Shown here piece after piece: positions 44,537 through 53,195 of a DNA stretch of 64,000 nt. Source of the DNA: Acidobacteriota bacterium (GTDB lineage: Bacteria > Acidobacteriota > Terriglobia > Acidiferrales > UBA7541); the NCBI GenBank assembly GCA_003224055.1, contig QHYE01000044.1, forward strand, positions 1-64,000. Reading direction: 5' to 3'. The position numbers were made by a program, and so were the translations under genes. The notes beneath the pieces are model-generated. The model did not search any database. It had not been told where the DNA came from and saw nothing but the letters and a program-made list of their open reading frames with translations. Within the stretch, counting starts at the first letter, position 1, and each line of letters begins with the position of its first letter.

Positions 44537-45742
44537 TTGTCGGTGAGGGATTTCGAGAGAATTTTCTGGATCGTGCTCGATAGCGTGGGAATCGGCGAAC
44601 TTCCCGATGCCGCGGACTACGATGACGTCGGCAGAAGCACGCTCGGGCACATAGCGGAGTCGCGCGCGCTGCAAATCCCAAATCTGGTGCGCCTCGGACT
44701 CGCAAATATCGCGCCGCTCAAACACCAAACGCCGGCAGCAGCGCCTCTTGGGGCGTACGGAAAGGGTGCCACGCACTCTCCGGGAAAAGATACGACCACG
44801 GGGCACTGGGAAATGGCGGGCGTATGGCTGGGCCAGGCGTTCCCTGTTTACAAGAATGGATTCCCGCCCGTGTTGATCCAGGAATTTGAGAGGCAGATCG
44901 GCAGGAAAACCATCGGAAACAAGCCCGCCTCCGGCACGGAAATCATAAAGGAACTTGGTGAAGAACACGTTCGCACGGGTAAGCTCATCGTTTACACGTC
45001 GGGCGACAGCGTGTTTCAAATTGCCGCCCACGAGGACATTATTCCGATCGGCGAGCTCTACCGCATGTGCGAGATCGCCCGGAAATTGCTGGTTGGGCCG
45101 CATCGCGTCGGCCGCGTCATCGCGCGGCCGTTCACGGGAACTCCGGGTAACTTCGTGCGCACCACGCGCCGCCACGACTATGCCGTGGATCCGCCCAAGC
45201 CCATGCTCATGGACGTTCTGGCCGAACGCAAAGTCCGCGTCTTCGGCATCGGCAAGATCCATGACATTTACAACGGCCGCGGCGTCGAAGAATACGTCAC
45301 CACCAAAGGCAATGCCGACGGCATGGAAAAATTGACCGCGGCAGTCAGCGACCGCAAGAGTGGCCTCGTTTTCGCAAATCTCGTCGATTTCGATATGCTC
45401 TACGGCCACCGCAAGGATGTCGAGGGTTTCGCCAAGTCCCTGGAAGAATTTGATCGCATGCTCGGCGATTTTTTGCCGCTGCTCAGCCTCTCCGATTTGC
45501 TGATGATTACCGCGGACCACGGCTGCGATCCCGATCCGCGCTGGCCCACCACCGACCATTCCCGTGAGTACGTGCCGATTCTGGCGTATTCGGCCGCAAC
45601 TGGTGCTGGTGTGAACCTCGGCGTCCGGGACACGCTGGCGGATATGGGACAGACGATTGCCGAGAATTTCGGCACCGCAATTCCCCACGGCACCAGCTTC
45701 CTCCGTGAAATCAGCGGCAAGTTCGCAGACGCCGCGAGATAG
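44537..45742 (+). CDS. deoB: phosphopentomutase
   Basis: 401 aa, alkaline-phosphatase-superfamily enzyme that interconverts ribose-1- and ribose-5-phosphate (and the deoxy forms). It has the N-terminal LDSVGIGELPDAADYDDVG motif with metal-binding Asp, the phosphoacceptor Thr in GKDTTTGHWE and the late metal cluster TADHGCDPDPRW with TDHSREYVP. Start is TTG 44537 or GTG 44543; the latter has GAGGG about 6 nt upstream. Its function is nucleoside salvage. Confidence 0.94.
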   Translation: MSVRDFERIFWIVLDSVGIGELPDAADYDDVGRSTLGHIAESRALQIPNLVRLGLANIAPLKHQTPAAAPLGAYGKGATHSPGKDTTTGHWEMAGVWLGQAFPVYKNGFPPVLIQEFERQIGRKTIGNKPASGTEIIKELGEEHVRTGKLIVYTSGDSVFQIAAHEDIIPIGELYRMCEIARKLLVGPHRVGRVIARPFTGTPGNFVRTTRRHDYAVDPPKPMLMDVLAERKVRVFGIGKIHDIYNGRGVEEYVTTKGNADGMEKLTAAVSDRKSGLVFANLVDFDMLYGHRKDVEGFAKSLEEFDRMLGDFLPLLSLSDLLMITADHGCDPDPRWPTTDHSREYVPILAYSAATGAGVNLGVRDTLADMGQTIAENFGTAIPHGTSFLREISGKFADAAR

Positions 45743-45785
45743 GCAATCGCGCAGCACGCACTCTGAAAAGAAAGGCTTAGCGCAC

Positions 45786-46535
45786 GTGGACAGAATCATC
45801 TCACCCGGACGGATTTTCATCGCTATTTCCCTGGTAGTTTTCGGGATTCAACATTTCCTGTATGCCAATTTCGTGGCGACGCTGGTGCCCGCGTGGGTGC
45901 CGGGGCGGCTGTTCTGGGCGTACTTTGTAGGCGTCGCGTTCGTCGCAGCCGCAATCGGAGCCGTCGTCCCAAAAATGACGCGGCCTGCGGGGATTCTGCT
46001 GGGAATACTGTTCTTTCTTTTCGTTGTGACGCTTCATATCCCGAGAATTGCCGCCCACTCGCGGGATGGAAATGAGTGGACCAGTGGATTTGTGGCGCTG
46101 GCCATGTGTGGGGGCGCCTGGATTCTTGCCGGCGCTACTTCACTGGAAGGCAAGCGCGAAACACCGTTTCCGTTCTTCAGAGTCGGGCGTTACTTTTTTG
46201 CCTTGGCCATCGTGGCGTTCGGCGTTCAGCATTTCCTCAACGAGAAACTTACCGTTCGGGTCGGCCCGCCGTGGTTTCCGGGACGGCCCCTCTGGGCGTA
46301 TCTCACCGGCACCGCCCTGGTTGTCGCAGGCGCGGCGATTGTCATCGGGAAACATGCGCGACTCGCGGCTACTTTTGTTGGAACGATTCTTTTTCTATTT
46401 TTTCTGTTCCTTCACATTCCTCGTATCTTGGCGAATCTGCACGATCCGCGCCCGTGGACCAGCGGCTTCGAAATCCTGGCCCTGTGTGGAAGTGCTCACG
46501 CCCTGGCCAGCACGCTGCCAAGAGATTCAAAATAG
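45786..46535 (+). CDS. DoxX-like membrane protein with internal duplication
   Basis: 249 aa. It consists of two homologous halves of about 115 residues. Each opens with a helix containing FGIQHFLY or FGVQHFLN, then WVPGRLFWAYFVG or WFPGRPLWAYLTG, then a long hydrophobic helix and LHIPRI, then WTSGF before a final helix. That gives about eight transmembrane segments. The unit resembles DoxX/DUF-type quinone-linked membrane proteins. GTG 45786 is chosen because the first helix follows it. The function is unknown. Confidence 0.78.
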   Translation: MDRIISPGRIFIAISLVVFGIQHFLYANFVATLVPAWVPGRLFWAYFVGVAFVAAAIGAVVPKMTRPAGILLGILFFLFVVTLHIPRIAAHSRDGNEWTSGFVALAMCGGAWILAGATSLEGKRETPFPFFRVGRYFFALAIVAFGVQHFLNEKLTVRVGPPWFPGRPLWAYLTGTALVVAGAAIVIGKHARLAATFVGTILFLFFLFLHIPRILANLHDPRPWTSGFEILALCGSAHALASTLPRDSK

Positions 46536-46603
46536 CAAGTTCAGCGCGGTCGGGCCCCGACCCGGCAGAATCGGGAGTTATTCCCTGCTCCGCTCCTTCT
46601 GCC

Positions 46604-47611
46604 TCAGTGCAGCGAGGCGACGTCGCGAGAGACCCCGGACGAAGAAACAAGCGATCGCACCCTCAGTTTGGCTTGCGCAAGTTGAGCGGGAGTGAGTTGC
46701 CGCTCCAGAGAGTGAAGCGTGGCGTTTCCTCGAGTGTCCCCCTGTAGCGCGGCCGCCGAGATCCAAATGTACGCGGCGGGCAGGTCCTTCGCCGTGCCGC
46801 GGCCGGCAGCATACATCGACCCGAGCATGATGCGCGCTCCCGCGTGTCCCTGCGCAGCAGCCTTCTGGAACCAGACGAAAGCAGCTGCGTCATCTTGTGG
46901 AACGCCTTCGTTGTGGAGGTAAAGATCGGCGAGATTGTACTGCGCCTGCGAGTCACCGGATTCGGCAGCTTGGCGATACCAATGGGCGGCCGCGCCATGA
47001 TCCTGAGCGACCCCGAGACCGTGATCGTACATGTAGCCAAGATTTACTTCGGCGGCGGCATCGCCTGCCTGGGCGCCTTTTGCAAAGAAACGAAATGCTT
47101 CGGCATAATCCTGCCAAACGCCGCAGCCCTTGAAGTAAAGGATGCCTAGGTTGTAAAGGGCCGGAGCGTACCCTCGATCGGCAGCGGCTTGCAGCCAGTA
47201 CAAAGCAGCGCCGGCATTCGGCTGCGTGCCCCATCCGGCCAGCGAGGCCACCGCAAGATTTACCATCGCTGCCGGACGCCCGCCGCGCGCCTCCCTTTCA
47301 AAAATCTTGTATGCTGCCCGCGTCGGGCGTTCCGGGGAGAGGCCACGCACCCTACCAGCATAGGCCGCCGCCTCCTGCCGGCGCGTTTGGTCGCCGTTCC
47401 GCTCCGGGATTGCGCTCACGCGAACCGAATTTCCTTCCTGCACGATCAAGGAAGCCAGGTCGGACGGAGCACAGGCAGACGGAGTCGAGGCCACCTTTTG
47501 TTGGGCTCGAACCCGGTTCGGAAGGCACCAAAAGGCTAAAACGGCCAGGAAGCAGTAGCTGCTGATGCGGCGCAACACCGGAAAAATGGATTTTGCTTCA
47601 AGTACATTCAT
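46604..47611 (-). CDS. Sel1-repeat protein, exported
   Basis: 335 aa. An N-terminal hydrophobic segment (SYCFLAVLAFWCLP) suggests export or membrane anchoring. From about residue 125 it has five Sel1-type repeats of 36 residues, for example YAPALYNLGILYFKGCGV and AAEVNLGYMYDHGLGV. Such proteins are adaptors in envelope and stress signalling. It follows the ADOP permease by 156 nt, and the gap contains palindromes like the one upstream of padR, so it may be part of the same regulon. ATG 47611 has a good GGGGGAA before it. Confidence 0.85.
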   Translation of the reverse strand: MNVLEAKSIFPVLRRISSYCFLAVLAFWCLPNRVRAQQKVASTPSACAPSDLASLIVQEGNSVRVSAIPERNGDQTRRQEAAAYAGRVRGLSPERPTRAAYKIFEREARGGRPAAMVNLAVASLAGWGTQPNAGAALYWLQAAADRGYAPALYNLGILYFKGCGVWQDYAEAFRFFAKGAQAGDAAAEVNLGYMYDHGLGVAQDHGAAAHWYRQAAESGDSQAQYNLADLYLHNEGVPQDDAAAFVWFQKAAAQGHAGARIMLGSMYAAGRGTAKDLPAAYIWISAAALQGDTRGNATLHSLERQLTPAQLAQAKLRVRSLVSSSGVSRDVASLH

Positions 47612-47665
47612 ACTTCCCCCTTCGAGTCGCGAGAGCGACAAAAAGCTGAAGGCAAGAGGCTCTAG

Positions 47666-47716
47666 GATAGAACTTCTACCTGTAGAACATCTGCCTACAC
47701 GCATAGACGTTCTATC
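47666..47716. promoter_or_regulatory. palindromic operator region before the Sel1 gene
   Basis: TTCTACCTGTAGAA (47674-47687) is a perfect inverted repeat. GATAGAAC (47666-47673) and GTTCTATC (47709-47716) form a wider inverted pair, and ATAGACGTTCTAT is another partial palindrome. TTCTACATGTAAG upstream of padR shares TTCTACNTGTA. A PadR-type dimer could bind here. Confidence 0.5.
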
Positions 47717-47766
47717 TATGGAAATGTTCCATGAAAAATACGGCGAAGAAGCAGATTTCGTGAGAA

Positions 47767-50409
47767 TTATTCGTAGCGCAGGGCGGAGGATGGATTGACC
47801 CGTGTTGCCCGGCGGGCGGGAATCCAGCAGGCGATCAGGCCTACGAGAAGGAGCAGGCCGGACACGGAGACAAATGTGAGGCGGTCGTACGGGGAAACAC
47901 CCCAAAGCTGGCTTACCAGCACCCGGGAGAGCGCGAAACTCACGCCCAGCCCGATGATGATGCCCGCCAGCAGCAACTGCAATCCCTTTCGCAGCACCAT
48001 CTTCAGGACATCGGCTCGTGCGGCACCCAGGGCTATGCGGAGGCCGATTTCGTGTGTCCGGCGCGACGTAGTGTAAGCAATCACGCTGTAAACACCGATG
48101 CTGACTAACACCAAACCGATGACGGCAAATATGGTGACCAGCCAGAGCCCGAAGCGCGGCTGGGCAAACGTAAAGAGATTGAGAAAGTATTCAAGAGTTT
48201 CGGGTTGCGCCATGGCCACGCTCGGATCGGTGGCCCAAATTTCCTTGCCGACGGCTTTGATCATGGACTTGGGCTCGTTCGTGGTACGCACGAGGATGCC
48301 GCGCATGAATGATCCGGTAACAGTATAGGGAATCCAGACTTCCGGCCAGAGCGGTTCCTGCAAACCCTGATTTCGCACATCGGCCACCACACCGATCACC
48401 TCAAACCAAGGCTCGTTCAAGGGATCTGAAAACTCTTTCAGCTCCTTCAACTGGATGCGGCGGCCGATGGGATTTTCGTCTCCGAAGTAGCGGCGCCGAA
48501 ACGTTTGGTTGATGACCGCGACCTTCCGGGCGTCATTGACTTCGGCCTCGGTGAAAGAACGACCATCAAGGAATTGAATTCGGAGCACCGAGAAATAATC
48601 CTCGCTGCAAAGCTGAAATAGGGTGTTCCATTTTTCCGTGTGCGCTTTGCCGGGGACTTCCACTTCACTGCGAATTCCGCCGTAAGGCGGAAGCGTGCTG
48701 GTTTCCGCTGCGAAGGCAATACCAGGCACGGACTTCAAACGGGCCAGGAGGGGCCGGAAAAAAGATGTGAGTTGAGCAGCGGTCTTATAGTGCCCCGACG
48801 GCAGCGGAATACGCGCAGTCAGAACATGATCCATCCGCAAACCAAGAGACACTTCCTGAAGAGCGACGAAGCTGCGCATGAACAGACCGGCAGTGAAAAG
48901 CAGCGCGAGTGAGAGGGCCACTTCCAGGACGATTACGGCATTCCGCAGTCCGGCGCGGCCAACCGTTCGGCCGACCCCTTTGCCGGTGTCACGGAGCGAA
49001 TCGTGGAGGTCGCAGCGCGAAGCCTGGAGCGCAGGAACTAGGCCGAAGAGAAACACCGTGCCAACGCCAACAACCAACGCGAAGAGAAGGACCGCTCCAT
49101 TCATTGCGATGACGGTTTCGGAGGCAATGGTGAACTCAGGAATCACCGCGGCAAGAGTTTTCACGCCGGCCCAGGCGAGAAAAATTCCGAGCATCGCGCC
49201 GCTGATTGCCAGAAGAAAGCTTTCAGCAAGCAGTTGGCGTACGACACGGAAACGGCTTGCTCCCAGGGCTGCACGCACAGCAAATTCTTTTTCACGAGCG
49301 GTTGCCCGGGCAAGCAAGAGATTGGCAACATTGCCGCAGCCGATGAGGAGGAGAAGTCCCACTGCTGCCAGGAAAACATACAGGCTGTTGCGAAAACGCG
49401 GGGAGAGTACCGCAGAGCCGAAGGATAGAACCTCCATGGTAAAATGCTTTGGATATTCTTTCGGGTAAACCGCGGAGAGCCGCTGGGCGATGACGGCGAG
49501 ATCCGCTGACGCTTGGTGAGCGGTCACACCAGGTCTGAGATGGGCGACAACTCCCCAGTGCCGAGGGAAATCGCCTTCCCTTAGAACCCTCGGCTCGTCC
49601 GGCCCGCGCGGCATCCACAGATCGGCGCCACCCCAGGCAAAGCGCGGCGCGGCAATGCCAACGAGCGTGCGGGAAACACCGTTCAGCGTAAACGTCTTGC
49701 CGATCAAGGAAGGATCGGAATTGAACTTGCCAACCCAGGTGGCATGACGCAGGACGAAAACAGGGGGAGCGCCAGACTGATAGTCGGCGGCCTCGAGGGA
49801 GCGCCCGAGGAACGGGGCAACGCCAAAGAACTCAAAGGTGCCTGAAGTAACGTAGTTGCCGCCCAATTGCAGATTGCCATCGCCGGCCGTGTAGACAATG
49901 TCATCCTCGAGGTTGGCCACCATGCCATCAAACACATGGTTCTGCTTCATGAGGTCCTGAAATTCGGCAAACAAAAAGGCGCCGCGCCAACGGTCGGCCT
50001 GGTCCTGATCGTGGAGTCTAATCGTCACGAGGTGCCGCGAGTCTTTGTAGGGCAAGGGCTCGAAGACAGCGTTGTCAACCACGCTAAAGATGGCGGTGGA
50101 TGCGCCAATTCCGAGGGCCAATGCGAAAATGGCGATGAAAGCGAAGTGGCGATCCTTTGCAAGGCCTCGAAAGGCGATGCGGAAGTCTCGCGCAAGAATC
50201 TCTAGGTGATTCTCCCACCGTGCCTCGCGGCATTCTTCCTTGAAGCGCTCAACCCCGCCGAATTCGATGGAGGCGCGTCGGCGCGCTTCCTCGTGGGGGA
50301 ACCCGGCTGCGATATATTCGGCGGCTTGCTGCTCAACGTGGAATTGCAGCTCCGAGTCGAGCCGGCGCTCGGTCAGCGATTTGTGCCAGAGACGGCGGAG
50401 CCAGCGCAT
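47767..50409 (-). CDS. ADOP-family permease (MacB/FtsX-like)
   Basis: 880 aa acidobacterial duplicated orphan permease. An N-terminal cytoplasmic permease-prefix helix region (residues 1-65) is followed by a first transmembrane helix (FAFIAIFALALGIGASTAIF), a MacB periplasmic core, the FtsX three-helix module (GLLLLIGCGNVANLLLARAT), a second periplasmic domain and a second FtsX module (WLVTIFAVIGLVLVSIGVYS). No ATPase is encoded beside it, hence orphan. The substrate is unknown; export of peptides or lipids is possible. padR lies 10 nt upstream and probably controls it. Confidence 0.92.
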   Translation of the reverse strand: MRWLRRLWHKSLTERRLDSELQFHVEQQAAEYIAAGFPHEEARRRASIEFGGVERFKEECREARWENHLEILARDFRIAFRGLAKDRHFAFIAIFALALGIGASTAIFSVVDNAVFEPLPYKDSRHLVTIRLHDQDQADRWRGAFLFAEFQDLMKQNHVFDGMVANLEDDIVYTAGDGNLQLGGNYVTSGTFEFFGVAPFLGRSLEAADYQSGAPPVFVLRHATWVGKFNSDPSLIGKTFTLNGVSRTLVGIAAPRFAWGGADLWMPRGPDEPRVLREGDFPRHWGVVAHLRPGVTAHQASADLAVIAQRLSAVYPKEYPKHFTMEVLSFGSAVLSPRFRNSLYVFLAAVGLLLLIGCGNVANLLLARATAREKEFAVRAALGASRFRVVRQLLAESFLLAISGAMLGIFLAWAGVKTLAAVIPEFTIASETVIAMNGAVLLFALVVGVGTVFLFGLVPALQASRCDLHDSLRDTGKGVGRTVGRAGLRNAVIVLEVALSLALLFTAGLFMRSFVALQEVSLGLRMDHVLTARIPLPSGHYKTAAQLTSFFRPLLARLKSVPGIAFAAETSTLPPYGGIRSEVEVPGKAHTEKWNTLFQLCSEDYFSVLRIQFLDGRSFTEAEVNDARKVAVINQTFRRRYFGDENPIGRRIQLKELKEFSDPLNEPWFEVIGVVADVRNQGLQEPLWPEVWIPYTVTGSFMRGILVRTTNEPKSMIKAVGKEIWATDPSVAMAQPETLEYFLNLFTFAQPRFGLWLVTIFAVIGLVLVSIGVYSVIAYTTSRRTHEIGLRIALGAARADVLKMVLRKGLQLLLAGIIIGLGVSFALSRVLVSQLWGVSPYDRLTFVSVSGLLLLVGLIACWIPARRATRVNPSSALRYE

Positions 50410-50419
50410 GGCGAGCCTC

Positions 50420-50755
50420 CTACCCCGCAGTCCGGAGAATCAGGGCAACTGCGTCGGAAAGCCGCTCCCAGTTCAGCATTTCAGTTTCGAGTTGGGCCCG
50501 GCCTTTCCGCGTCAGCTTGTAAAACTTCGCCTCGCGGCCCGTGCTGGTGTCCTTCCACTCCGCTTCCAGCCAGTCGCGTTCCTCGAGCCGGTGCAGCGCG
50601 GGATAAAGGGACCCCTGCGGAACCTGAAAGAAGTCTTTGGATATTTGCTGAATCCGCTGGGAGATAGCGTAGCCGTGAATGGGGCCGCCAGCCACCACCT
50701 TGAGAATCAGCATGTCGAGAGTCCCCTTGAGGAACTCTGCTTTTTCCTGAGGCAT
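50420..50755 (-). CDS. PadR-family transcriptional regulator
   Basis: 111 aa. A PadR winged helix fills residues 8-90 (FLKGTLDMLILKVVAGGPIH, VPQGSLYPALHRLEERDWLE) and ends in an amphipathic dimerisation helix. It is typical for regulators placed directly upstream of ADOP permeases. A palindrome lies over its own predicted -10 box. ATG 50755 is used; GTG 50764 is possible. Confidence 0.9.
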   Translation of the reverse strand: MPQEKAEFLKGTLDMLILKVVAGGPIHGYAISQRIQQISKDFFQVPQGSLYPALHRLEERDWLEAEWKDTSTGREAKFYKLTRKGRAQLETEMLNWERLSDAVALILRTAG

Positions 50756-50786
50756 CGTAGACACCTAGCTATGCTACCTGTCTAAG

Positions 50787-50819
50787 TTCTACATGTAAGC
50801 CTAACTCTGTCTATTGTCA
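50787..50819 (-). promoter_or_regulatory. promoter and operator of padR-ADOP
   Basis: On the minus strand TTGACA (50814-50819) is followed after 16-17 nt by TTACAT or TACATG. That -10 overlaps the perfect palindrome TACATGTA (50790-50797) inside TTCTACATGTAAG. A repressor bound here would block RNA polymerase. The TTCTAC-N-TGTA core is repeated before the Sel1 gene. Confidence 0.55.
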
Positions 50820-50889
50820 AGAAAATTCGCGAGCGAAAAGCAGGCGGACTGAGGTTCGCCCGCTCTTCAATACAAGTGAGGAAAACTTC

Positions 50890-51912
50890 TCAGTTGCCGG
50901 AGCCGGACGTGGTGGAGGCAGCGGGGGCGCTGGGGGCGTAGTAGCCGTTGCGCGTGCGTGCCATGAGTTTGCCGCGGCCTCGCGGTGGAATTACTTCGAC
51001 GGAGACGGCACGGAAGCTGCCGTCCCGGTTCGCGTTGCTGGGGTAGTAGGCCAGGGTGTACTGATTGCGGATGTCGTGCGCCACTTGCTCGCAGATGCTG
51101 TGAACGTCCTCGACATTTTCCGGGAAATACGCCACGCCGCCGGAAGCCGCGGCGATCTCCTGCAGAACTTTCTTGGCGCGCTTGGCTTCTTTCTTGCCCT
51201 CACTGCCAAGAAGACCGATCGTGTAGATCACCGTGTCGGTCTTTTGAATCTCCCTGAGGGTTTTTTCCAGCGAATTGTGGCTGGCATTGTCTTCCCCGTC
51301 GGTGACCACCAGCAACACTTTCTTGTCCTTTGAACCCTTCTTGAGATGGTCCAGCGAGCCGATAATAGCGTCGCGAAGCGCGGTGCTTCCGCGTGAATCG
51401 ATCCGCTCCAGCGCTTCTTTCAGCTCCGGGATGCTGCTGGTGAAATCCTTGTCCAGGTCGAGATAGAAGTCGTCATTGAAGTTCACGACAAAGGCCTCAT
51501 CCCGCGGATTGCTGGCTTGCACCAGGGTGAGCGCCGCTTCGTTAACGCGCGGCCGCTTCTCGCGCATGCTGCCGCTGTTATCGATGACCAGCCCCATGCT
51601 GACCGGCACGTCTTCGCGCTTGAAAACGGAGAGTTTCTGCTCGACCTTGTCCTCGAAGACCCGGAAATTTTCCTGCTTCAGTCCGTCGGCAAACCGCTGC
51701 CGGTCGTCGAGCACCGTGGTGTGTAGCACCACGAGGTTCACGTCGACTTTAATGCTGGAACCCTGCTTGCCTGAATTCGAGGCCTGGCCCGGGGGCGGAG
51801 GCGGGGGCGGGCTTGGCACCGGAAGCTGCGCCGATGCCGACGATGCCAGCAGGACGACCGCGCACAGCAAAATGGATAAAGTCTGCACCCAGCAAAGAAC
51901 GCGGGGCCGCAA
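50890..51912 (-). CDS. VWA-domain protein of the acidobacterial type (copy 1)
   Basis: About 340 aa, exported by a hydrophobic N-terminus (QTLSILLCAVVLLASSASAQ), then a Pro-run (PSPPPPPPPG) and a von Willebrand A domain with the MIDAS DNSGSM in SMGLVIDNSGSMREK. The region before it (DVNLVVLHTTVLDDRQRFAD) is the N-terminal beta domain of this family. The start is unclear: TTG 51912 directly after the upstream stop, or GTG 51888. It follows its paralogue in tandem. Such proteins may bind cell-surface ligands, but function is unknown. Confidence 0.8.
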   Translation of the reverse strand: MRPRVLCWVQTLSILLCAVVLLASSASAQLPVPSPPPPPPPGQASNSGKQGSSIKVDVNLVVLHTTVLDDRQRFADGLKQENFRVFEDKVEQKLSVFKREDVPVSMGLVIDNSGSMREKRPRVNEAALTLVQASNPRDEAFVVNFNDDFYLDLDKDFTSSIPELKEALERIDSRGSTALRDAIIGSLDHLKKGSKDKKVLLVVTDGEDNASHNSLEKTLREIQKTDTVIYTIGLLGSEGKKEAKRAKKVLQEIAAASGGVAYFPENVEDVHSICEQVAHDIRNQYTLAYYPSNANRDGSFRAVSVEVIPPRGRGKLMARTRNGYYAPSAPAASTTSGSGN

Positions 51913-51913
51913 G

Positions 51914-52963
51914 CTAATGGCTGGGAGCGTAGTAACCCGTCTTTGAAAAGACGCTAAGAGGCGGGAGTCCCTTGGGTGCACGCAATTTGATTTTGACCTT
52001 GCGCCAGCGCGCGTCGTGGGCCTTGTTGCTTGGTCGATAGCCGAGGACATATTGATTTCGCAGCTCCATGCCTATTTTCGAGGCGATGTCCGGAAGCTCC
52101 TCCAACCTTTCCACGTTGAAGACGCGGCCCCCGGTCATCTCCGTTACTTCACTGAGAAGCGACGGGCCGGCAAGTTCTTCCGGCGACCGGTTGCGTGAGC
52201 CGATGGGATCAAAGATGCCGATCGCATAGAGCTGGGTGTCCGCTTCCTTCACCAATCGCTTGATGTCGCTTTCGTTGTACCTACTATGATTATCGCCTCC
52301 ATCCGATAAGATGAGCAAGGCGCGTTTGGCGTTGTGTGCACCCCTCATCTGGCTGAGGCCAAGATAGAGGGCGTCGAGAAGCGCAGTGCGGCCCTTCGGC
52401 GCGGTCAGCATCATGCGGCTCTGCAAATCTTCCACGCTGTTGGTGAAGGAACTGCTCAGCTCGGCGCGCTCATTGAAGCTCACAAGGAAAAACTCATCCT
52501 GCTGATTGGCGGTCTTGAAAAATTGCACGGCAGCTTCCCGCGCCTTGCCGACTTTGTTGGACATGCTGCCGCTGAAATCGAAAATCACGCCAATGGAGAT
52601 CGGCACATCCTCCGCGGAAAAGGTGACAACCTCCTGCTCAATGTTATCTTCAAACACCCGGAAATTATCCGGCTCAAGCCCCGTGACCAGCCGGTTGTAA
52701 GGATCCGTTACGGTGACGTTCAATAATGCGAGGTCGACATCCAGTTTGATAAGCTGGCGCGGTTTGATGGAAACTCCGGGCGTATCCCTGCGAACGTCAT
52801 CTTTCTTCACTTCCTCGCGCTTGGCTTCGTCTCTGGGCTTGTTTTCGTCCGACGTGGACTGTGCAGCGAGGGAAAATCCGGCTGGCAGGGCGAACAGACA
52901 TACCGGCAGCAGAACTCGAAAGGACAGAATAAGGACCCGAAAACCTGGCGCATCGCGTTTCAC
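51914..52963 (-). CDS. VWA-domain protein of the acidobacterial type (copy 2)
   Basis: 349 aa. GTG 52963 has a GAGGG upstream and opens a signal peptide (VLILSFRVLLPVCLFALPAG). A Lys/Arg/Glu-rich linker precedes the N-terminal beta domain (KLDVDLALLNVTVTDPYNRL) and the VWA domain with MIDAS FDFSGSM and LLILSDGGDNHS. A long in-frame extension to 53404 overlaps kdsB and looks spurious. Both VWA copies are 1-2 nt apart, so co-translation is likely. It is divergent from kdsB. Confidence 0.85.
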   Translation of the reverse strand: MKRDAPGFRVLILSFRVLLPVCLFALPAGFSLAAQSTSDENKPRDEAKREEVKKDDVRRDTPGVSIKPRQLIKLDVDLALLNVTVTDPYNRLVTGLEPDNFRVFEDNIEQEVVTFSAEDVPISIGVIFDFSGSMSNKVGKAREAAVQFFKTANQQDEFFLVSFNERAELSSSFTNSVEDLQSRMMLTAPKGRTALLDALYLGLSQMRGAHNAKRALLILSDGGDNHSRYNESDIKRLVKEADTQLYAIGIFDPIGSRNRSPEELAGPSLLSEVTEMTGGRVFNVERLEELPDIASKIGMELRNQYVLGYRPSNKAHDARWRKVKIKLRAPKGLPPLSVFSKTGYYAPSH

Positions 52964-53195
52964 GGCACCCTCTACATCCCGGCCAACTGGGACGGCCGCG
53001 CGGCTCGGACTAACCGGAATTCTATCACTCGGCTTCGCGAAAACAAGTTCAATTACTTGCTGTGCCGTATTGAACAGTTTGATGGGCCGGTCGGAGCGAG
53101 CGGCGTGTGTTAGCATCGCCCCACGGGCACTCTCCCGTTTGTGTAGGACCGGCCCGGAAGCTCTGTTATTCCCGGTACACGGAGAGCAAGAAGCG

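Follow-up and report, generated by a model that had tools for sequence, protein, structure and literature searches.

Proteins of the PadR family are described as sensors of toxic compounds that induce detoxifying enzymes or efflux pumps, and autoregulators of the PadR-2 type adjoin transporters, as in LftR-LieAB of Listeria (excerpts of PMC6457526). In Acidobacteria, a PadR-family regulator (TIGR03433) is paired with a permease called ADOP (TIGR03434). ADOP genes are numerous, an ADOP N-terminal profile giving 40, 67, 84 and 52 matches in the four genomes searched; the literature searched yielded no work on what ADOP does or how it is regulated, and PadR does not occur in the main text of PMC3174227 on Solibacter. 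Here we analyzed a padR-ADOP pair followed by a Sel1-repeat gene in a stretch of 64,000 nucleotides (the window) from contig QHYE01000044.1 of an Acidobacteriota bacterium (assembly GCA_003224055.1; genome G000, 4.53 Mb, 136 contigs). Comparison with related genomes strongly supports a predicted operator that the padR-ADOP promoter has in common with the gap between ADOP and Sel1, and control of the permease and the Sel1 gene by one PadR protein is well supported as a prediction. The three genes, identified by profile search, lie on one strand in the order padR, ADOP, Sel1:

50423..50764, minus strand: padR frame, 114 amino acids from GTG at 50764; by comparison with relatives the likelier start is ATG at 50755
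47770..50409, minus strand: ADOP permease gene, 880 amino acids; the stop codon ends at 47767
46607..47611, minus strand: Sel1-repeat gene, 335 amino acids; PF08238 in four stretches, over the cut-off (E 1.7e-35, 120.6 bits)

As in the other padR-ADOP pairs of Acidobacteria, both proteins are above the curated cut-offs (143.4 vs 101.8 bits for the acidobacterial padR family TIGR03433, padR_acidobact; 852.2 vs 622.3 bits for TIGR03434), and the regulator also matches PF03551 of Pfam (E 1.5e-23). The permease begins with the permease prefix domain (NF038403) and has a duplicated MacB_PCD-FtsX arrangement, with two stretches each of the MacB-like periplasmic domain (PF12704) and of FtsX (PF02687). 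The preliminary description, made from the window alone, had called it an orphan; in agreement with this, the genes identified in 44537-53128 (deoB, a DoxX-like gene, Sel1, padR and two VWA genes) include no ATP-binding cassette (ABC) ATPase gene. The Sel1 gene, 155 bp behind ADOP, starts at ATG 47611 preceded by GGGGGAAGT, and its product is probably exported, judging from an N-terminus that looks by eye like a signal peptide, with AQ behind the hydrophobic stretch invariant in five orthologues. The locus resembles LftR-LieAB (excerpts of PMC6457526) in its small winged helix-turn-helix regulator of about 110 amino acids, in the candidate operator within the regulator's own promoter and in the transporter as a target. 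It differs in that no ATPase gene was seen beside the permease, in that the second target carries a promoter of the extracytoplasmic function (ECF) sigma type, and in that the predicted operator repeats one-sided half-sites and does not form a single palindrome.

We searched 61 genomes, 35 of them further members of the genus, for the combination of PadR, ADOP and Sel1. At least five contain it in the same order and orientation: G000, G017, G032, G016 (with two ADOP genes) and G006. The last four also gave the four best hits among the 24 Sel1 relatives found in a search of GTDB, with identities to the window proteins of 78-89% for PadR and 48-63% for Sel1. Unlike other TIGR03433/TIGR03434 pairs, the locus in these genomes (at least 5/61) has a Sel1 gene with a predicted shared operator. 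The conserved feature, which recurs upstream of padR and between ADOP and Sel1, consists of a half-site repeat, AYAGGTAG-N7-AYMGGTAG, and a module, GTAG-N5-CTAGG. In the window these elements and the associated promoters are as follows:

50792..50820, minus strand: padR promoter of the sigma-70 type, read by eye; TTGACA at 50820-50815, 17 nt, TACATG at 50797-50792
50774..50796, minus strand: predicted operator in the padR promoter, ACATGTAG-N7-ACAGGTAG
50764..50777, minus strand: predicted second module of the operator, GTAG-CATAG-CTAGG, which overlaps the padR ribosome-binding region
47704..47730, minus strand: predicted ECF-sigma-type promoter of Sel1, GGAAC-N16-CGTCTA
47676..47698, minus strand: predicted operator before Sel1, GTAGGCAG-N7-ACAGGTAG, at and after the predicted transcription start

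In the relatives, the padR promoters keep TTGACA and mostly have TATAGG as the -10 element; a sigma-70 scan of 47500-51000 reported no promoter, the TACATG of the window breaking its rule for the second hexamer. TTGACA is followed by ATAGGTAG-N7-AYMGGTAG with some variation (as first half-site the window has ACATGTAG and G006 has ATATGTAG; the second is ACCTGTAG in G016 and G006), and then by CTAGGT or CTAGGC ahead of the start codon. In the Sel1 gaps, CGTCTA is followed by two half-sites, again 15 bp apart; the second is ACAGGTAG in all five, and CTACAGGTAG is likewise invariant. Aligned, the five gaps have 35 invariant columns out of 57 from GGAAC to the last half-site, vs 4/60 upstream and 5/73 downstream. 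GTAG-N5-CTAGG was found in seven of eight padR promoters of the clade and in four of five Sel1 gaps, where it overlaps CGTCTA (the regular expression also allowed GTCG). This pattern bears on the explanation that Sel1 is simply an operon member reached by readthrough from ADOP, with the elements in the gap being remnants or having no role. The common strand, the gap of 155 bp, and the scan of 47500-51000, which gave four terminator-like matches but none within the gap, are compatible with such readthrough. However, the block in the gap is conserved far above its flanks, and the five genomes agree in the order of promoter and operator; we consider this explanation very unlikely.

The likeness of the two site sets was then quantified with weight matrices trained on the sites of the other genomes, the scored genome being left out, and compared with sampled background windows. 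With the padR-trained matrix, 0/800 background windows reached the score of the Sel1 gap in G017, G032, G016 and G006, and 2/800 did so in the window; the best Sel1 site was on the same strand in all five. With all five padR sites used for training, the Sel1 gap was reached by 2/1797 background windows in the window and by 0/1797 in the other four genomes. Reciprocally, the Sel1-trained matrix placed the padR promoter above 1792/1792 background windows in all five genomes. A combined pattern, AYANGTAGN7AYMKGTAG, had eight exact matches in 11 whole genomes, all of them at this locus (five at padR, three at Sel1); with one mismatch it had 20 matches, including one further Sel1 gap, and the reversed pattern had 89. 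Because both sets of sites went into the fitting of this pattern, the result speaks for exclusivity and not for independence. In addition, a covariance model (R1) was built on the padR sites alone, with 150 of the 217-466 candidates per genome scored. In the five genomes it gave seven matches, namely the five training sites and, beyond these, the Sel1 gap of G017 as the best at 15.8 bits (E 0.19), followed by one further match at 12.4 bits.

Several observations weigh against the shared operator. The covariance model found only one of the five Sel1 gaps (that of G017), in the whole genomes as well as in 12 sources, where it reported nothing but the training sites and that gap. The best padR site of G006 by the Sel1-trained matrix is on the opposite strand, and one unrelated padR promoter of G000 (L003) likewise exceeds all 1792 background windows. 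The Sel1 site of the window is the weakest of the five, with a degenerate first half-site (GTAGGCAG) and no exact GTAG-N5-CTAGG. Finally, the synteny of the neighboring deoB and VWA genes is also partly conserved, so that gene order by itself is weak evidence. As controls, no operator was seen by eye before the Sel1 homologues L108 and L109, which lie away from padR-ADOP, or in the ADOP-ADOP gaps of L101 and L104; nor was one seen by eye directly after ADOP at four loci without Sel1, where a script found ATAGGTAG or the repeat at L103 and L104 only, both times in the padR promoter.

The preliminary description had started from a different element, a palindrome shared by the two upstream regions. 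Its positions were reproduced, with TTCTACATGTAAG at 50787-50799 before padR, where it overlaps the -10 element (TACATG) read by eye, and TTCTACCTGTAGAA before the Sel1 gene, surrounded by a wider GATAGAAC/GTTCTATC pair at 47666-47673 and 47709-47716:

47674..47687, plus strand: palindrome TTCTACCTGTAGAA, of which only a core, CTACAGGTAG (minus strand), is conserved

The suggestion that these two similar sequences resemble each other by chance gains something from the comparison: the exact motif, TTCTACNTGTA, is missing from the orthologous loci of G017, G032, G016 and G006 (six copies occur elsewhere in those genomes), and, with the alignment judged by eye, neither its outer arms nor the GATAGAAC pair is kept. 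There is also no excess genome-wide, exact TTCTACNTGTA occurring six times in G000 vs five times for the reversed pattern, and TTCTACNTGTAGAA with up to two mismatches 66 times vs 99. Against chance, the window has two exact copies at a distance of 3.1 kb (shuffle mean 0.010; two copies in 0/300 shuffles), both of which overlap conserved half-sites, and chance likeness therefore appears extremely improbable. The exact palindrome and the GATAGAAC/GTTCTATC pair were nevertheless rejected as the operator and as an element, respectively, and of the proposal of one PadR acting on both targets, the shared operator stood, strongly supported by the five-genome footprint and by the reciprocal cross-prediction, whereas the palindrome as its site did not. 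The four other copies of TTCTACNTGTA in G000, on contigs C48, C57, C74 and C109, are at none of its 16 PadR genes. Because the motif is thus absent from the 15 PadR genes other than that of the locus, its extension to padR-ADOP pairs in general fails by the wording of the preliminary description itself, while the local claim is retained. Another palindrome, GTAGAACGTCTAC, is present in the padR promoter L007 (G000:C111) and resembles GTAGAACGTCTAGG of the G017 Sel1 gap.

Nor does the half-site operator mark padR-ADOP pairs in general; it is specific to the clade of this PadR. In G000, an ADOP-like permease follows 13 of the 16 PadR genes (by eye), and among the 15 other padR promoters the Sel1-trained matrix left 0/1792 background windows above L003, 26/1792 above L013 and at least 97 above each of the remaining 13. 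Of the 25 padR promoters taken from G000 and G016, only that of the window itself has the module GTAG-N5-CTAGG, and a general padR-ADOP operator was accordingly rejected. These counts also concern the identity of the binding protein. The 16 PadR genes in the genome leave room for another regulator, or a paralogous PadR, at the shared sites in place of the PadR of the locus; but the motif is in this PadR's own promoter in five genomes and at background level in most other PadR promoters of G000, and the exact operator matches are confined to this locus. We regard a different binder as unlikely, and the simplest reading is that the PadR of the locus would bind the shared operator. In 12 relatives of this PadR the tyrosines of HGY and LYP are invariant; by eye, from the text excerpts of PMC6457526, they were tentatively matched to Y20 and Y42 of BsPadR and Y28 and Y48 of LftR. 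In these 12 proteins the residue before HGY, read by eye, is I or L when the promoter has GTAG (8/8) and S or N when it has GTCG (4/4), a match that may reflect phylogeny only.

The second predicted input to Sel1 is its promoter. GGAACTT is given as the -35 element for RpoE of Escherichia coli, and ATTGAAACCTTT for SigW of Bacillus subtilis (PMC8103513), and SigE of Streptomyces coelicolor is described with AAC/TC and a spacer of 16-17 bp (PMC6767563). The Sel1 promoter resembles these in its GGAAC(T) -35 element, 16-bp spacer and GTC-type -10 element, and differs from them in its position before Sel1 and ADOP permease genes. GGAAC, the spacing and CGTCTA are identical in all five orthologous Sel1 gaps, so that the sequence features of an ECF promoter, including conservation among orthologues, are all present. 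Most likely, Sel1 would be transcribed by an ECF holoenzyme, with PadR repressing at the start.

The pattern GGAACNTTTN12CGTCTA, derived from the Sel1 gaps alone, was searched in 11 genomes with up to one mismatch. Of 30 matches scored, five were the Sel1 gaps, and 17 of the 25 others precede ADOP (11) or PadR (6) genes with the start at most 123 nt downstream. Because the upstream regions of ADOP and PadR genes make up only about 0.1% of such a genome (a rough estimate), we infer that 17/25 is far from chance. With up to one mismatch, GGAACNTTT-N12-CGTCTA stands directly upstream of ADOP or padR genes of the genus at L115, L117, L118, L120, L124, L129, L130, L133-L139 and others. In a survey of G000 and G016 (80 of 124 ADOP matches taken, 29/40 and 51/84; prefixed and orphan ADOPs separated by a rough regular expression that misplaces a few), AAC-N16,17-CGTC was found in 14/42 orphan ADOP upstream regions (mean 1.31 and maximum 6 in 200 shuffles), in 5/25 padR upstream regions (shuffle mean 0.61, maximum 4) and in 0/13 of prefixed ADOPs. 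Some counts weigh against a tie between ECF promoters and ADOP genes. The 11-genome search gave 32 matches vs 40 for the reversed control, and eight of the 25 had no ADOP or PadR match (for one of them, a contig end leaves only 89 nt). In 28 further genomes the exact pattern had 11 matches vs three reversed: two ADOP genes by score, one PadR start seen by eye at a contig end, one ECF sigma gene and seven others. With only two of the 11 scoring as ADOP, the link is weaker there.

Alternatively, GGAAC...CGTCTA could be part of the PadR operator, or of a sigma-70 promoter (TTGAC-N17-TATAGG). In favor of this, CGTCTA overlaps the GTAG-N5-CTAGG module, and G016 and G006 can by eye also be read as TTGAC-N17-TATAGG. 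However, the window, with TTCCAT and GTGTAG, no longer fits the sigma-70 reading, whereas GGAAC-N16-CGTCTA is kept in 5/5. Moreover, the ECF pattern precedes many ADOP genes and, in G057, an ECF sigma gene, while GTAG-N5-CTAGG is in none of the upstream regions of ADOP genes without padR in G000 and G016 (0/42 orphan and 0/13 prefixed, 0/55 in all). A non-ECF origin of these boxes is thus rather improbable, and we continue to prefer an ECF-type promoter.

The sigma gene of G057 is followed by a zinc-type anti-sigma-like gene. Pairs of this kind (L305, L308-L318) have GAAAC-N17-TGTCTA (eight in the genus) or a GGAAC-type element (G043, G057) upstream, and the element is placed as for autoregulation of the pair. 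Among the orthologues of the G057 sigma gene in the genus, eight of nine share GAAAC-N17-TGTCTA with varied spacers, the ninth having only 202 nt upstream; a loose AAC, 15-18 nt, NGTC pattern, itself weak, was found upstream of 10 of 11 scored orthologues, six second-best paralogues being left unscored. GAAAC-N17-TGTCTA differs from the Sel1 element in both boxes, and the ECF region 4 family has 40 matches in the genome, so that the sigma gene is no more than a candidate. A strict-pattern scan for ECF autopromoters at 30 sigma loci of G000 (L252 was unparsed) gave no convincing case.

Taken jointly, these observations are probably best read as a small PadR regulon with an ECF-type promoter at Sel1. 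PadR would repress its own padR-ADOP operon through AYAGGTAG half-sites 15 bp apart over the -10 element and the start region, and would repress Sel1 through the same half-sites at about +1 to +22 of the GGAAC-N16-CGTCTA promoter, with GTAG-N5-CTAGG covering the -10 element of that promoter in four of five genomes. Such placement (-10 and start at padR, start and -10 at Sel1) would suit blocking of RNA polymerase. With the same control site at Sel1 and at padR-ADOP, one repressor probably switches both, and release of PadR by a ligand would let the permease and the Sel1 protein be made together. By analogy with other PadR proteins, the regulator likely senses a toxic compound and induces detoxification or efflux. 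The ECF promoter would provide a second, stress-type input to Sel1, as many ADOP genes of the genus seem to carry. Through the conserved operator, one ADOP thus gains a candidate partner in a named protein that is probably exported, a lead suggested by predicted co-regulation and gene order; the ECF-type promoter pattern likewise connects many ADOPs with an input of the stress type. A broader scheme, which we offer as speculative and somewhat doubtful, is that the ADOPs of the genus are envelope-stress outputs of ECF sigma factors, the orphans via GGAAC-N16-CGTCTA and the padR-ADOP pairs via the local PadR, with Sel1 as a dedicated exported partner and the sigma factor associated with GAAAC-N17-TGTCTA as the candidate factor.

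Other features of the region are briefly described. No match to Rfam was obtained in 46000-52000, and a known RNA element at the locus was therefore rejected. Upstream of padR on the minus strand are two tandem VWA genes (TIGR03436; 53128-51917 and 51909-50893), which were not found in the L101 stretch and are kept in L099, L100 and L102. Beyond Sel1, the plus strand has deoB and a gene for a DoxX-like membrane protein (45720-46532), whose frame overlaps the end of deoB; this protein is just below the Pfam cut-off, and its two halves, compared with the G017 orthologue, match in swapped positions. In G017 (L099 6631-5225, G017:C204), PadR and Sel1 are retained, and ADOP is a single frame without about half of the protein. 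Misassembly is possible there; residues 1 to about 390 join the last FtsX directly, as if the duplicated halves had recombined.

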